Shown here: piece after piece, positions 3,254 through 25,577 of the stretch | Layout of the letters: each line of letters opens with the position of its first letter | Numbering within the stretch: the first letter of the stretch is position 1 | Origin: a virus | Strand: one strand, 5' to 3' | DNA: 25,577 nt | Virus record (IMG/VR): IMGVR_UViG_3300028364_000131 | Location: 1 to 25,577 of that record | Notes under the pieces: model-generated | The model's input: only the letters and a program-made list of their open reading frames with translations | Databases searched by the model: none | What the model was told of the DNA's origin: nothing | Made by a program: the position numbers and the translations under genes

Positions 3254-3913
3254 ATGGGTTCTATGAAAACATGGATACCCGAAGATAATAATCGGTTGGT
3301 AAAAACTATATTACAAACTGGATTCCGTAAATATGAAACTGCTATAAAATATGAATCTAAAATTATAAAAGAAAATATTGATAATCCCTTAAATGAAAAT
3401 TATCATATACCAGCCGAAGGATTTCATACGAGTGGGATGCAATGGGATGATTTATCCAAACAAAGGTTAAGTAAAAAACGGATAGAAAATAAATTAGCAT
3501 TAGGTATGAATAACCCTATGTTCGTCCGAAACCACAGACAAGAAACTAAGGTTAAAATGAAATCCAAAGCTAAAGGTAGATATACATTGGAGTGGTACAT
3601 AGACCGGAATGGATTAGAAAATGGGACTAATCTTTATACTGAAAGATGTATATATCATAAAAAAAGAAATTCCGGCCGCGGTAATCCAATGTATAATAAA
3701 ACTCATACACAATCATCACGTGAAAAAATGAGTAAGAATTCATCAAAAATAGTTGGTAAGTATGATATGGAAAATAATTTATTAGATATTTATAGTAGTA
3801 TGATGGAAGCATCATCTAAGAACAACATCAGTATTAGTATGATTAGTGCGGTATGTAATCCAAAACGAATTAACAAAACTGCTGGCGGATTTATCTGGAA
3901 ATTGGAAAATTAA
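3254..3913 (+). CDS. GIY-YIG homing endonuclease, C-terminal part (NUMOD3/NUMOD1 DNA-binding repeats)
   Basis: This 219-residue frame continues the endonuclease whose first residues are encoded from 3152. It opens with MGSMKTWIP and a 'ETAIKYESKIIKENIDNP' segment that completes the nuclease fold (Glu and Asn of the GIY-YIG core). Two NUMOD3-type repeats follow: 'GMNNPMFVRNHRQETKVKM' at about residues 92-110 and 'GRGNPMYNKTHTQSSREKM' at about 141-160. A C-terminal NUMOD1-like helix-turn-helix has 'YDMENNLLDIYSSMMEASSKNN'. Such enzymes cut cognate alleles lacking the insertion and spread by repair. It sits between sheath and tube genes, a usual place for free-standing homing genes. Without the N-terminus it probably cannot cut DNA; ATG 3254 may be only an internal codon. 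Confidence 0.8.
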   Translation: MGSMKTWIPEDNNRLVKTILQTGFRKYETAIKYESKIIKENIDNPLNENYHIPAEGFHTSGMQWDDLSKQRLSKKRIENKLALGMNNPMFVRNHRQETKVKMKSKAKGRYTLEWYIDRNGLENGTNLYTERCIYHKKRNSGRGNPMYNKTHTQSSREKMSKNSSKIVGKYDMENNLLDIYSSMMEASSKNNISISMISAVCNPKRINKTAGGFIWKLEN

Positions 3914-5880: not shown

Positions 5881-6375
5881 ATGATAAGTACACATCAAAA
5901 ATTAATAATTAATTCAGTAATAGATTTTATGAAATCTGAATTTAATATAAATGCAAAATTAACCGTAAAACGTAAATCAAAATCTGGACTTTTGGGTGAT
6001 GTTACTATGAGTCATAATTCTGTTAATTTAAATAAATTCACATTACATTATAATCCGAGCCAAGGGTATACAATGATAATACAGTCTTTGATACATGAAT
6101 TAACCCACGTTAAACAAATATCAAATAAGGAACTACAGCCATCATCGGATTATAAATCTATTATTTGGAAAGGAAGCCCCTACATTACTGTTAAGGAATT
6201 AAATAAATCCATGAAATCAATCAACGATTATATGAATTTACCATGGGAAAAGGAGGCATATGGTAATATGAAAAAACTATATCCTAAATTTATAAAATCA
6301 AAATACTTTAAGAATTTACGTGGAAAGAATGCGACATTGGATTATATACTCGATAATGAGGTTACGTTTCAATGA
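5881..6375 (+). CDS. HExxH zinc metallopeptidase-like protein
   Basis: This 164-residue protein has HELTH at residues 72-76, in a helix (SLIHELTHVKQ). A second acidic motif PWEKEAY follows at residues 121-127, where E123 or E125 could be the third zinc ligand. The arrangement is that of short zincins: a beta-rich N-terminal half, an active-site helix, and a 'P(W/Y)E..A' ligand 45-50 residues later. A peptidase role is inferred from these motifs; the substrate is unknown. Virion maturation, cell-wall or host-protein cleavage are all possible. There is no signal peptide, so it acts in the cytoplasm or as part of a particle. A late-type promoter is directly upstream. A second, shorter HExxH gene lies at 22102. 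Confidence 0.7.
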   Translation: MISTHQKLIINSVIDFMKSEFNINAKLTVKRKSKSGLLGDVTMSHNSVNLNKFTLHYNPSQGYTMIIQSLIHELTHVKQISNKELQPSSDYKSIIWKGSPYITVKELNKSMKSINDYMNLPWEKEAYGNMKKLYPKFIKSKYFKNLRGKNATLDYILDNEVTFQ

Positions 6376-17717: not shown

Positions 17718-19064
17718 ATGATTATAATTGAAACTCAAAAAGATATAGATATCTTTAAGTTATATTGGGATACAGAGCCATGTTTTGTATTTCCTGTTTG
17801 GTGTGATTTGGACAAACATCCAATGAACAACACTATGTCATTCCTATATATTAGATTTCGCGACCAAGAAACGGATGATGGTGATGTTGTTATGGATTTC
17901 ATAATTCCGATAAATCATAATGATTGTTTAAATATTGAATTGGATTTATCACATTCATCCCAACCAAAATTGGTATATAATAAGAAGGGATTACTACAAT
18001 CGGATACGGGAATACATAATATACATGATATTGGTTCATATTTATTCTTTAATCGGTACTCCGAGTACCCTAATGGGTTGGAAATCAAACTAATAGAGGA
18101 TTTAACGAACTTTTATACTAGATTGGGGTTTAGGGATAACTTGGGTAAGATACTCCCTATAATGAAATGGTGTGAGGTATTACGGGATATTACAGATCCT
18201 ATAATGGATGTGGTCGTAGAATTACCACTAAATCATTTAATTGGTAAAAATTGGATAGATGATACCATGATTCCGACTCTTTCGGAGATTGAAAGATTGG
18301 GTATCCGAACCGATACTAAAAAATTTACAGATAGGTGGCCGGATGTGTCAAATTCCAAAAACCATTCAAAAAACCTAAAAGATGATATTATTTACACCGA
18401 GTATAACCCATATACACTAACATCTCGACCATCGAACAGACACGGTGGTATTAATTTTGGAGCTCTAAACAAATCCGATGGTACTCGTGAGGTGTTCATC
18501 CCTAGGGAAGGAAACGTGTTCATTGGATTCGATTACGATGCATACCATATACGGTTGATAGGAAAGTTGATTAATTACGAATTACCCAGAACATCAGCTC
18601 ACCAATGGTTAGCGGACCAATATGGGTGTACATACAAGGAATCCAAGGACAGGACGTTTACAAATCTATACGGTGGTATATCCAATGAAGATAAGAATAT
18701 AGAGTTTTTCAAAAAAACCGATGAGGTTATACAATATATGTGGGAACGTGCAAAAAATCTAGGTTACTTTGTGACTCCCAATAATCGTAGGATACAACTT
18801 GATTGGATCGAATCCCCAACTCCACAAAAAATATTCAACTATTTCCTACAAGCTATGGAAACCGAGTTCAATATGGATGTGATGGGGAAACTTTTGGAAA
18901 GGGGTTACGGAAAATATTTGGTACTATATCAATATGATTCATTTACGTTCGATATCCCATCTGATCCGGAACTAAAACGAAAATTGTCCGAAATAAAGGG
19001 TATATTGGAAAAAAACGGATTTCCTGTAAACGGTTCTTATGGTGAATCGTTCGATAAAGTATAA
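17718..19064 (+). CDS. Compact family-A DNA polymerase, no proofreading domain seen
   Basis: This 448-residue protein has a complete set of Pol A palm and finger motifs. 'SRPSNRHGGINFGAL' (residues 236-250) corresponds to the 'GRLSS.PNLQNIP' stretch. Motif A is F-D-Y-D-A-Y-H-I-R (271-279), with the metal-binding Asp at 272. Motif B is K310...F314...Y318-G319 (O-helix Lys and Phe kept; the Arg eight residues before the Phe is replaced). Motif C is Y-D-S (406-408), with the second catalytic Asp. The residue normally Glu in motif A (the nucleotide-sugar sensor) is His277, and HDE is YDS. The first 170 residues lack DxE exonuclease motifs and may be a degenerate exonuclease. T4-type phages normally use a family-B polymerase, so this gene is unusual beside a tail module. 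Confidence 0.85.
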   Translation: MIIIETQKDIDIFKLYWDTEPCFVFPVWCDLDKHPMNNTMSFLYIRFRDQETDDGDVVMDFIIPINHNDCLNIELDLSHSSQPKLVYNKKGLLQSDTGIHNIHDIGSYLFFNRYSEYPNGLEIKLIEDLTNFYTRLGFRDNLGKILPIMKWCEVLRDITDPIMDVVVELPLNHLIGKNWIDDTMIPTLSEIERLGIRTDTKKFTDRWPDVSNSKNHSKNLKDDIIYTEYNPYTLTSRPSNRHGGINFGALNKSDGTREVFIPREGNVFIGFDYDAYHIRLIGKLINYELPRTSAHQWLADQYGCTYKESKDRTFTNLYGGISNEDKNIEFFKKTDEVIQYMWERAKNLGYFVTPNNRRIQLDWIESPTPQKIFNYFLQAMETEFNMDVMGKLLERGYGKYLVLYQYDSFTFDIPSDPELKRKLSEIKGILEKNGFPVNGSYGESFDKV

Positions 19065-21615: not shown

Positions 21616-21625
21616 TATATTTATG
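21616..21625 (+). promoter_or_regulatory. Candidate late promoter TATATTTATG
   Basis: TATATTTATG matches the late core except for its last base. It overlaps the in-frame ATG at 21623, which argues that the next gene really starts at 21644. Confidence 0.5.
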
Positions 21626-21643
21626 AATGAAAAGGATACTAAT

Positions 21644-22039
21644 ATGAAATCACAACTACTTTGTACATTCACAAATAAAGAAGAATTAGAACAAATTCTT
21701 GTAGAGATACAGGATACGTACACGTTGGTCTATAATTACATATACGTTCTACAGAACAAAACCAACTTAGAAGAACTATATGTGACCTATAATATAGATT
21801 CACTTGACCAACCAAATAGACCACTTAGAGATACGATTTTGGTTCATAGAAAAAAGGAAACCAATACACTATATACTATTAATGCATTGAACCAATTGGT
21901 AAAGGAAGAAAACAATGGGGTATTGGATAAAACATTTGAGATAGATTGGGTATCCATTAAAAATTCAATAATGGTAACCAGCACGGACGGACCACGTAAA
22001 ATACCTACACGTATATTTGAAATAATACCCTTCACGTAA
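21644..22039 (+). CDS. Conserved phage protein of unknown function
   Basis: This gives 131 residues from ATG 21644 (MKSQLLCTFTNKEELEQILVEIQDTYTLVYNYIYVLQN). The frame also contains an ATG at 21623, but that lies in the promoter motif. The ATG at 21644 has an AAGGA site 10 nt upstream. The pattern 'LlCTFtnkeel...l.ei...Y..vYnkIYVL.n', 'lY.TYNid', 'i..HRKK.tNTLYTINALN.Li..ENNGVLD..f.i.W' is one I associate with small proteins of marine T4-like phages, with unknown function. It looks alpha/beta and cytoplasmic. A late-type promoter is upstream. Confidence 0.75.
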   Translation: MKSQLLCTFTNKEELEQILVEIQDTYTLVYNYIYVLQNKTNLEELYVTYNIDSLDQPNRPLRDTILVHRKKETNTLYTINALNQLVKEENNGVLDKTFEIDWVSIKNSIMVTSTDGPRKIPTRIFEIIPFT

Positions 22040-22089: not shown

Positions 22090-22101
22090 TGTATAAGATT
22101 G

Positions 22102-22473
22102 ATGGACATGACACGACAAGAAATAATAGAAGTAACAGAACGAATCTATAATAATGTAATGGATCATTATGGTGAATCAAAACATCATAGTTTCTTTCCA
22201 CACGTTTCAATAGAAGATACACCATTTTCAGACTCGGATGTTCCCGAAGATCTATACGGTGAATATTGTTCCATGTTGAACGAAATCACGGTATACTGGA
22301 AAAACATTCCATCGGTAGAACATCTAACACGAACATTGGTACATGAATACCAACACTATTTACAATCGAGTTCGTGGATGAAACGATATTACACAATGGG
22401 ATACAGTTATAATGACCACCCATATGAAATCGCTGCATTTGATGAGGAGAAAAACTGGAAACTATTTATTTAA
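22102..22473 (+). CDS. Small HExxH zincin-like protein
   Basis: This gives 123 residues from ATG 22102 (MDMTRQEIIEVTERIY); a TTG at 22099 and an ATG at 22108 are alternative starts. HEYQH at residues 81-85 lies in a helix (RTLVHEYQHYLQ). 'HPYEIAAF' at 106-113 offers E109 as a third zinc ligand, the same layout as the protein at 5881. The N-terminal half, with 'GEYCSMLNEITVYWKN', would form the sheet in front of the active site. Peptidase activity and zinc binding are inferred from these motifs only; the target is unknown. Its promoter type is that of the accessory genes, unlike the copy at 5881. Confidence 0.7.
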   Translation: MDMTRQEIIEVTERIYNNVMDHYGESKHHSFFPHVSIEDTPFSDSDVPEDLYGEYCSMLNEITVYWKNIPSVEHLTRTLVHEYQHYLQSSSWMKRYYTMGYSYNDHPYEIAAFDEEKNWKLFI

Positions 22474-22571: not shown

Positions 22572-24818
22572 ATGAATGCTACATTAAATTTAACTGTACT
22601 TTTAAGAAATGTACAGGGTGGTGCAATCATCAAGACAATATTACCAGAGGGTGAATTAGATGTGTTCAATATCCGCGGCCAGGGGTTATATGCATGGGTC
22701 ACTGAATCCCAATATATGTTGATGGTTCAAACTGGTAAGAGGTATAAAATAAAGTTCGGACAATATGGAACATATGCGGTTGGAGGTTCTACTCCACAAG
22801 ATACTATTAATAGTTACTCATGGGTGAATGAACCTATTGTTATTCTTTGGGCGTATCGATTTTTGGAAACTGAAATCGAACGAGATGAATGCGGTGAGTA
22901 TATTAAATCCGCATATATCGCCGAAGGGATTATTAATAAAAATATAGGTAGTAAGGTGATTGAGGGAAAGGGAACTGAAACCTTTATGACTACATTGGAT
23001 ATTATTAAGAGTGTATTTTCCCAAACAATGTTCCACAATAATGCACTTAAATCGTTTACACCCAGAATCCCGCAACAAGAATTTATCGATAAATACATTG
23101 CACATCGTAAAAACGGAGGTAGGGAGTTTCTACTTGCGGCCATTATGAGGTATGGAAAAAACTTTTCATGGTTATGTGGGGTGCGTGAATTGATTAGCTA
23201 TAATGGTAATTTACTTGTGTTGACCTCGAAACCCGGAGTGTTTGATACCCTTAAAAAGGATATCATGGAACACGTTTATTTTGCAGATTGGGAATACGTT
23301 GATTTACGTGAAGTGAAAATCAAGGATGATTTTGAACTCGATACTACTAGGATTTCGATCGTAGTCGTTTCTACTCAACTTAGTTATAATAAAGTTAGTG
23401 GTAAATCAACTCAAAAATTTCTTGCAAGAAACAACTTCGATGATACATTTTTGGATGAATGTCATGCAGGAACGGATACCGAAAAATTTATAAATTTTTT
23501 AGCTTCAATCAATTCCAATCACTATACATTTGGTAGTGGTACACCATATAAGACTATTGTTTCAAGGGGATTCACCCAAGAAAACACATATTTCTATGGT
23601 TATGTAGAACAACAACATCAAAAGTGGACGGATATTAAAAACGATACACCAAATTCATCAGTAACCATAGATTGTATTATACCATCAATTGCCGATGATT
23701 ATAGAAATAACGTTAATTATTCAGATGATGAACAATTTAGAATGTCCAAATTACTATCGGTAAACGATACTGGGGAATTCAACTTTGGTGGAGATGTTAG
23801 AAATTTCCTACTTGATGTCCTTGGTAAGAGTAATAACAAACATCGATATTCTCCATACAGGATAACTAGTGGAAAACTTGATCATACTATATGGTTACTA
23901 CCTAATTCAACTAATGTTGTTAAATCAGTTGGAAGGTTACTCAACGATATTGCACCCGAATATAAGGTGATTGTTGCGACGGGTAATGAAACTACCGATA
24001 TAACCGATGTACATGGTGCGATTGGTGAATTTGATAAAACCATAACACTTACAATAGGTAGGTTTGTCGAGGGAACAACGGTCGAACAATGGACTGGAGC
24101 TTTGGTATTTTCAGAAACAGAATCTATCGAAAAATATTTTCAGTTTATTTTTAGAATCGCTTCACCATATATCGGTAAAGATAAGGGATATGTATTCGAT
24201 TTTTCCACGGAACGGACGTTTCAAATGATGTTTGAAATGGCAAATACACAAGCTACCAACACGAATAGAAATGATTCACAAAATGTTATCAAAGAATGGT
24301 TGGATTGTTATAACGTCTATCATATGGATGGAGGAGTATCACCAAAACGCGTTGAAGTTGGTGATATTCTTGAAAAAATAAAACATGGTGATTACCGTTC
24401 TGCTGCATTGACTAAAACTTATAAAAATTGGTTTAATACCGATAATTTGGATAAAGTTGTTAATGTGTTTTCAAATACCGACACTGCAAAAAATATTAAT
24501 ATATCTACTAAATTCATTTCGAATGAAATGAAAGGTGGTAAAACTGCAAAACATATACGAACTGGCAATTCAGATAAAGACGATAAAATTGTTGGTGATT
24601 TAACGAAAACAATGAAAAATATTGTAGGTATTATATCCACATTCCCATTATACAGTACACTTTTCGAGGATGAAATGAACGAAAGAACTCTTGAAGAAAT
24701 ACTTAGAGTTGCTAGTGATGATGAAATACGATCATATTGTAAAGTTGGTAAATCTGAAATACAGTTATTAATAGATTATAATATTATTGATACAAGGCAG
24801 GTAAATTATTATCTATAA
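22572..24818 (+). CDS. Superfamily-2 helicase/translocase with GIY-YIG-like N-terminal domain (restriction-type)
   Basis: This 748-residue protein has SF2 motifs in order: 'PRIPQQEFIDKY' (Q-type region, 164-175), IMRYGKNF (191-198, in the Walker A position, with Asn where Thr/Ser is usual), DECH (295-298), GSGTP (321-325), 'TIGRFVEGTTVEQW' (493-506) and 'YFQFIFRIASP' (521-531). Related proteins with 'AKMRFGKT' are restriction-type ATPases paired with Eco57I-like methylases. Residues 38-138 (GLY at 38-40, KFGQYG at 61-66, GTETF at 134-138) resemble a GIY-YIG nuclease, but no catalytic Arg is obvious. The methyltransferase gene follows after 71 nt. It could be a restriction enzyme, an inactivated one, or a DNA-processing helicase. 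Confidence 0.75.
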   Translation: MNATLNLTVLLRNVQGGAIIKTILPEGELDVFNIRGQGLYAWVTESQYMLMVQTGKRYKIKFGQYGTYAVGGSTPQDTINSYSWVNEPIVILWAYRFLETEIERDECGEYIKSAYIAEGIINKNIGSKVIEGKGTETFMTTLDIIKSVFSQTMFHNNALKSFTPRIPQQEFIDKYIAHRKNGGREFLLAAIMRYGKNFSWLCGVRELISYNGNLLVLTSKPGVFDTLKKDIMEHVYFADWEYVDLREVKIKDDFELDTTRISIVVVSTQLSYNKVSGKSTQKFLARNNFDDTFLDECHAGTDTEKFINFLASINSNHYTFGSGTPYKTIVSRGFTQENTYFYGYVEQQHQKWTDIKNDTPNSSVTIDCIIPSIADDYRNNVNYSDDEQFRMSKLLSVNDTGEFNFGGDVRNFLLDVLGKSNNKHRYSPYRITSGKLDHTIWLLPNSTNVVKSVGRLLNDIAPEYKVIVATGNETTDITDVHGAIGEFDKTITLTIGRFVEGTTVEQWTGALVFSETESIEKYFQFIFRIASPYIGKDKGYVFDFSTERTFQMMFEMANTQATNTNRNDSQNVIKEWLDCYNVYHMDGGVSPKRVEVGDILEKIKHGDYRSAALTKTYKNWFNTDNLDKVVNVFSNTDTAKNINISTKFISNEMKGGKTAKHIRTGNSDKDDKIVGDLTKTMKNIVGIISTFPLYSTLFEDEMNERTLEEILRVASDDEIRSYCKVGKSEIQLLIDYNIIDTRQVNYYL

Positions 24819-24852
24819 AATTAGGATATATAAAAAAAAAGTTGTATATTAT
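24817..24852 (+). promoter_or_regulatory. Promoter: AAAATTAGG-N19-TATATTAT
   Basis: AAAATTAGG (24817-24825) overlaps the stop codon of the helicase gene; a 19-nt spacer and TATATTAT (24845-24852) follow. The methyltransferase would thus have its own promoter. Confidence 0.6.
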
Positions 24853-24889
24853 TAAGATACTATAAAATTAAAAGATAAACTATAAAACA

Positions 24890-25577
24890 ATGAATACAAA
24901 AAAGGAACATAGTGAATTTATCAAACTTTATAAGTTTTCACATGGTGCAACTTCACCCGATCCGTGGGAGTTGGTAGATATTATTGTAAACAGTATTCCA
25001 ACATATATATATAAGAACAAAAAATCAAAGTTCCTTTTTCCAATAGGTAAGGCAGGAACATTTGTATTATATGCATATTGGAAACTTAGAGAATTTCACT
25101 CACATGATTATATTGTTAATAATATGATTTATGTAGTTGAATCGAATTTGGTAAATTCCAATAGAGTATTAAAAAAGAAATTGGGATTGAAAAATGTATA
25201 TAATGATAATTTCATTAATCCTAAAACCAAAGAACTTAAAAAATTATTAAAAACTATGGAATTTGATGTAGTATTGGGTAATCCACCATATCAAAAAACT
25301 GACAATAAACGATGGAAATTATGGCCCTCTTTTATAGAAAAATCAATACCATTACTTAGTGAAAATGGTTATTTGGGATTGGTGACACCAATATCATGGT
25401 TGGGCGGAATGGGTCCCGAATTAGAACGTGCAAATGAATTGTTACTAAATGAAAATTTGATTTATATAAATAAAAATGTAAATAAGTATTTTAGTTCGGT
25501 GGGTGAGAATATAGGTTGGTTTTTATTATCAAAAAATAATTATAAGGGAAGCACTACTATACAAGATGAGTTGGATC
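24890..25577 (+). CDS. Adenine-N6 DNA methyltransferase (Eco57I-like), 3' end outside window
   Basis: The frame runs from ATG 24890 to the last base (229 codons, no stop), so the C-terminus is missing. The catalytic motif IV N-P-P-Y is at residues 131-134, preceded by 'FDVVLG'. It is followed by 'WPSFIEKSIPLLSENGYLGLVTPISWL', the usual continuation in Eco57I-like N6-adenine methylases. The SAM-binding motif I is likely 'FPIGKAGTFVLYAY' at about residues 50-63, a weak version. It transfers a methyl group from SAM to adenine in a specific DNA sequence. Located behind the helicase/translocase gene and with its own promoter, it probably protects the phage DNA or forms the modification half of a restriction-type pair. 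The target sequence lies in the missing part. Confidence 0.85.
   Translation, partial: MNTKKEHSEFIKLYKFSHGATSPDPWELVDIIVNSIPTYIYKNKKSKFLFPIGKAGTFVLYAYWKLREFHSHDYIVNNMIYVVESNLVNSNRVLKKKLGLKNVYNDNFINPKTKELKKLLKTMEFDVVLGNPPYQKTDNKRWKLWPSFIEKSIPLLSENGYLGLVTPISWLGGMGPELERANELLLNENLIYINKNVNKYFSSVGENIGWFLLSKNNYKGSTTIQDELD

Follow-up and report, generated by a model that had tools for sequence, protein, structure and literature searches.

A phage-borne helicase–methylase locus related to restriction–modification systems, with a degraded GIY-YIG-like domain and an apparently exchanged recognition cassette

The Type ISP enzymes LlaGI and LlaBIII unite a nuclease, an SF2 translocase, a gamma-type adenine methyltransferase and a recognition domain for an asymmetric site (PMC3874165). 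Their nuclease is an Mrr-like PD-(D/E)XK domain and all parts lie on one chain, whereas the locus described here, at the right end of a virus fragment of 25,577 bases that was analysed at full length (the window), encodes a GIY-YIG-like domain and separate chains; membership of Type ISP was rejected on account of these separate ORFs and the lack of a PD-(D/E)XK family match. The Type III restriction–modification (R-M) system EcoP1I stems from phage P1 (PMC2962900) and, like the window, places a methylase and an SF2 restriction subunit on a phage genome. Membership of Type III was likewise rejected, as the helicase matches no PD-(D/E)XK endonuclease family and the chain organization differs. 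The methylase class and the nuclease type of EcoP1I are also different from those of the window.

Closer counterparts are found among systems whose SF2 motor is homologous to that of the window. The best defence-library match of the window helicase is PADLOC PDLC03626 ('REase_MTase_IIG'; 9e-17), a 1359-position profile filed as Type IIG restriction–methylase proteins, and a homologous motor is present in a 1445-aa helicase–methylase fusion of Enterococcus (L009), in which a GIY-YIG-like domain, SF2 motor, methyltransferase and recognition domain follow one another and a small N-6 methylase lies upstream. Compared with these, the window has separate genes with the helicase first, lacks an Arg, a Trp and the Walker-A Thr (see below), and shows 20–26% identity. 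The operon of Rhizobium phaseoli pRphaN671a (L007) encodes a helicase of the same family together with an NPPY methylase (hereafter gene 2) that has a Lys-containing motif I, as in the window, and that matches the methylase half of the PDLC03626 profile; operons of this type differ from the window in their order (a small methylase gene, hereafter gene 1, then gene 2, then helicase), in their intact GIY-YIG residues and in their longer proteins. In a T4-like phage, Synechococcus phage ACG-2014f KJ019151, gene 1, helicase and NPPY gene also occur together, which likens it to the window, but identity is 24%, gene 1 is upstream and fixed, and the slot varies among isolates.

The helicase gene of the window (22572..24818, + strand) is an intact ORF of 748 aa, and is followed on the same strand by gene 2, an Eco57I-type N6-adenine methylase gene (24890..25577, +) that runs off the contig, still open after 229 aa. 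A check of ORFs and motifs bore out both ORFs and every motif named in the original prediction at its coordinates: GLY at helicase residues 38–40, KFGQYG at 61–66, GTETF at 134–138, RYGKN at 193–197, DECH at 295–298 and SGTP at 322–325, and NPPY at methylase residues 131–134. That prediction had overlooked that the methylase is truncated by the contig end and that a third gene present in nearly all phage relatives is absent from the window. No gene 1 occurs elsewhere in the 25,577 nt, probably because the contig stops inside gene 2, and gene 1 is predicted, from the order in relatives, to lie just beyond the contig end. Genes for tail sheath, tail tube and baseplate hub point to a T4-like myovirus, as had been proposed. 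Other genes of the window include an HNH/NUMOD3 homing-endonuclease-like gene in the interval between tail sheath and tail tube (3254–3913), and a gene beside the structural genes for a 448-aa protein that is similar to no more than part of a family A DNA polymerase (17718–19064; PHROG 17). HExxH-like motifs occur in two small proteins (HELTH at 5881–6375, HEYQH at 22099–22473), the second of them encoded directly upstream of the helicase; both match PHROG 16532 and are possible metallopeptidases.

The pair belongs to a widespread family. Single-sequence searches with the helicase retrieved 7 phage and 79 plasmid records at 20–29% identity, and a further 25 viral and 80 bacterial or archaeal loci came from scans with profiles; used alone as an IMG/VR query, the window helicase or methylase gave too few relatives or none. 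The plasmid and chromosomal operons run from an N-6 methylase (~215 aa) through an Eco57I methylase (~530 aa) to a helicase (~850 aa), whose annotation is either 'GIY-YIG nuclease' or 'DEAD/DEAH helicase'. T5orf172 scores above the Pfam gathering threshold in the helicases of L006, L007 and L149. The window order, helicase then gene 2, is the reverse of this cellular order; phage loci in which the helicase adjoins the methylase mostly have helicase, gene 2 and then gene 1 (L149, L150, L160, L162 and others), with the helicase split into two frames in L144, L148 and L151 and fused to the methylase in L147, L164 and L167; fusions also occur in L009, L016 and L178. The nearest complete relative, L160 (IMGVR_UViG_3300034062_004862, also L177), has a family B DNA polymerase upstream, followed by helicase, methylase and gene 1, and then GroEL and a clamp-loader-like ATPase. 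A 1097-aa protein of Synechococcus phage MA01 (L142:1550-4843), in which the helicase family is joined to an NPPY methylase, carries the annotation of a Type II R-M restriction subunit. Phylogenetic placement of the window was rejected as uninformative, since the window, like L004 and L033, sits on a long branch. Judged from sequence, the relation of the family to R-M is firm. The combination had been considered unusual for a T4-like genome, a view that does not hold given its occurrence in plasmids, chromosomes and phages, and the proposed R-M pair stands insofar as its relatives form R-M-like operons of 'GIY-YIG nuclease' and 'Eco57I methylase', but a third subunit exists beyond the pair. 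When the NPPY half of the methylase served as the query of a scan, 34 viral loci were retrieved; the helicase adjoins the methylase in 19 of them, and 3 more found via the helicase bring these to 22. The expected linkage of the two genes is thus seen in many homologous loci, but not in L002, which carries the nearest cassette and has no helicase in its 32.6-kb record.

The motor of the helicase (residues 161–560; 23052..24251, +) matches Pfam ResIII above the gathering score (5.6e-6), and its motifs align with those of 112 relatives in a 113-sequence alignment. Motifs II (DECH), III (SGTP), V (GTT) and VI (QxxFR) are retained, whereas motif I, the Walker A sequence RYGKN (residues 193–197; 23148..23162, +), reads GKN in place of GKT/S: the Walker-A Thr, conserved in 107 of 111 relatives, is Asn. 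This substitution, noted from the start, recurs in the L160 helicase, which is 53% identical over its full length, and a sequencing error is thereby ruled out; L178 has GKS, and L149 has GKT together with intact GIY-YIG residues. Between window and L160, dN is 0.41 and dS 1.8, giving a dN/dS of ~0.2 with dS near saturation. A sequence search of the helicase against the PDB yielded no match. ATPase activity of the window helicase is uncertain.

The N-terminal domain (residues 38–155; 22683..23036, +) likely adopts a GIY-YIG/T5orf172 fold. An AlphaFold model built on an alignment that includes L160, L178 and L181, and that consists mostly of T5orf172-type relatives and so may bias the fold, reaches pLDDT 84 and contains strands at 38–44 and 58–65, a helix at 75–80, a strand at 89–96, a helix at 114–128, a strand at 137–140 and a helix at 142–155, in the order expected of GIY-YIG. 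Among the viral models of BFVD, Foldseek matches it best to T5orf172 proteins, along with a single protein annotated as a GIY-YIG nuclease (probability ~1.00, E 4e-4 to 5e-3, TM about 0.4–0.47). The GIY-YIG-like N-terminus of the original prediction therefore gains from the model and the BFVD matches, but not from the other comparisons: Foldseek of the pLDDT 84 model against the PDB and Pfam on the isolated domain gave no match, and hhalign profile comparison of the domain without the motor gave no significant match (probability 3%). The assignment of KFGQYG to the YIG strand was upheld by the enlarged alignment and the same model; it replaced a candidate strand at 68–74 obtained with MAFFT from distant relatives, after L160, L178 and L181 had been added and the model had improved. 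An earlier model from distant relatives only (pLDDT 62) was set aside, its PDB search being meaningless.

Within this domain Tyr40, KFG 61–63 and Glu136 are retained, but the catalytic Arg of helix α1 is absent, as had been suspected: it is found in 109 of the 110 relatives with a letter at that position, and no Arg occurs in residues 58–95 of the window helicase. The Trp that follows the catalytic Glu in 109 of 110 relatives is missing as well. L160 shares the Arg-less helix ('TPQxTIxSYxW'), and L178 also lacks the α1 Arg. The losses of the Arg and of the Walker-A Thr are inherited traits of the lineage, not errors, because L160 shares both. Canonical GIY-YIG cleavage by the window protein is unlikely, and, since the catalytic Arg is missing, nuclease activity as such is doubtful; a working nuclease is the weakest link in an R-M reading of the locus.

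The methylase matches Pfam Eco57I (5.5e-15) and has the catalytic NPPY motif, but the GxG of its SAM motif I is not kept. This motif, LFPIGKAGTF (25034..25063, +), has Lys for the first Gly, and the same replacement is a family-wide signature of gene 2, being seen in 68 of 68 loci where the motif is readable; L160, with the canonical GxG in LDPCAGTGTF, is an exception. In gene 1, a Gly stands at this position in 43 of 43 proteins (under a motif I pattern that permitted Gly or Lys only), and NPPY is lacking in all 43. The Lys motif of gene 2 and the canonical motif of gene 1, which has no NPPY, suggest that the two gene products form an obligate two-chain methylase, and the simplest reading would be that SAM comes with the gene 1 product, whereas catalysis and recognition fall to the NPPY protein. 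In phrog_11371 (383 positions), the L178 cassette aligns at 4–262 and the L160 gene 1 at 282–382, and the presence of both halves in one profile is consistent with their forming a single enzyme.

The two parts of the window methylase have different nearest relatives. The N-terminal half with the degenerate motif I (24890..25255, +) is about 43% identical to that of L160, and the NPPY/target-recognition half (25256..25577, +; NPPY at 25280–25291) is 39% identical to that of L160 but 90% identical at the amino-acid level to a cassette of L002 (IMGVR_UViG_3300028364_000095; L002:8007-8327). Sharing extends to DNA: 318 of 343 bases (93%) are the same from 25237 to the contig end, and no similarity is found between window and L002 on the 5′ side of 25237. 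Position 25256 is the start of an ATG that serves as the start codon of the L002 cassette, and the first four L002 cassettes each start with a 66-nt repeat around that codon. These four belong to an array of five tandem NPPY or NIPF methylase cassettes (L002:7120-11894), which have the NPPY block right at their start; after the array comes one gene 1 for the SAM-binding half (161 aa). In L148 (L148:3311-10349), five tandem complete NPPY methylases (378–396 aa) are accompanied by one gene 1, with the helicase in two frames upstream. The NPPY/recognition half thus appears to be a cassette exchanged by phages; the start of L002 similarity at about the cassette start codon is what one would expect to see if recombination through a conserved start moved the cassettes. 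A more tentative extension is that the split methylase is combinatorial, with one gene 1 serving several exchangeable NPPY/recognition cassettes, so that exchange between unrelated phages at the 'MKFDVVxGNPPY' start would reset the specificity of both methylation and helicase; the window would then show a helicase-linked system that has lost its nuclease site and has received one such cassette.

The helicase–methylase pair is accessory and inserted at the edge of a conserved block, because sister phages with the same backbone lack it at this site. Twenty-two contigs have the backbone gene at 17718–19064, and all but one of them also have the 138-aa gene (21623..22039, +) that forms the left border of the locus. 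Where the contigs continue, a gp32-like SSB, a UvsX-type recombinase and often GroEL come after the 138-aa gene, either immediately or with small ORFs in between, and no helicase or NPPY gene was found there. A parallel is provided by the ACG-2014f cyanophages, in which the slot has the same flank in all 45 records found and only two of these have a detectable helicase of the family. In a direct comparison of three isolates, gene 1 hardly differs and the slot behind it varies, being empty in KJ019052, occupied by helicase and NPPY gene in KJ019151, and occupied in KJ019059 (L182:1381-4844) by a 200-aa protein (PHROG 7683), an NPPY methylase and a different SF2 helicase. The empty slot has one copy of a repeat of ~75 bp, and the inserts are flanked by it on both sides. 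Inspected by eye, the 200-aa protein of KJ019059 has a restriction-nuclease-like D...QxK pattern.

The preferred reading, to which a probability of roughly 0.55 is assigned, is that the locus is an accessory phage-borne module of the R-M type that methylates phage DNA and whose motor acts on unmarked DNA, cleavage having been weakened or replaced by blocking. From the homologies and gene order described above, we infer a subunit complex in which the T5orf172/GIY-YIG–SF2 translocase would partner an N6-adenine methylase with an exchangeable NPPY/recognition half, the small second subunit encoded by gene 1 supplying the SAM-binding half. The complex of the gene 1 and gene 2 products would most likely mark the DNA of the phage itself at one adenine motif; the helicase, using the same recognition, would translocate at the expense of ATP on DNA that lacks the mark, whether of competing phages, plasmids or the host. 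As the cleavage residues are degraded in the lineage of window and L160, the outcome there would likely be a block or very weak nicking, or else cleavage at a non-canonical site. Points against this reading are the lost Arg, Trp and Walker-A Thr, the absence of gene 1 from the window, and the negative PDB and hhalign comparisons.

The main rival, with an appreciable though clearly smaller chance of being right, is counter-defence by methylation only, in which methylase and gene 1 shield phage DNA from the restriction enzymes of the host; the helicase would then be a passenger in decay. Because cassettes occur without a helicase, as in L002 with its five cassettes and gene 1, methylation alone may be under selection, and both the cassettes standing alone in L170, L171, L173 and L174 and the loss of the nuclease Arg and the Walker-A Thr agree with this rival. 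A decaying passenger is harder to reconcile with an undisrupted 748-aa frame that retains helicase motifs II, III, V and VI, is 53% conserved with L160 at a dN/dS of ~0.2 (dS near saturation), and belongs to a helicase family that adjoins the methylase in 22 phage loci.

Two further explanations are improbable. An attack of the helicase–methylase complex on unmethylated host DNA would call for the same anatomy as the R-M-type module, with the methylase protecting phage DNA, and host and competitor DNA are indistinguishable as targets from sequence; the lost nuclease residues speak against it, as does the fact that other nucleases directed at host DNA are common in T4-like phages. An equally slight chance is given to a helicase for recombination or DNA remodelling that binds DNA through its T5orf172 domain and has the methylase as no more than a neighbour, since, although a role of T5orf172 domains in phage recombination has been proposed (PMC7824862) and the site borders the SSB/UvsX region of sister phages, gene 2 directly precedes the helicase in all 84 loci, whether cellular, plasmid or viral, that have a nearby NPPY gene, and is fused to it in the six loci listed above.

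PADLOC and RefSeq already name pieces of the family, and no description of it was found in the open-access literature. If this picture is right, the locus would represent a widespread, so far unnamed family that divides methylation chemistry between two proteins, and in which specificity halves pass between phages as DNA cassettes, a counterpart of the shuffling of specificity domains in Type I systems. The assignment of one protein as SAM binder and the other as DNA recognizer would become directly testable, and the family would offer a way to ask whether R-M-like modules of phages exclude rivals or only protect phage DNA.
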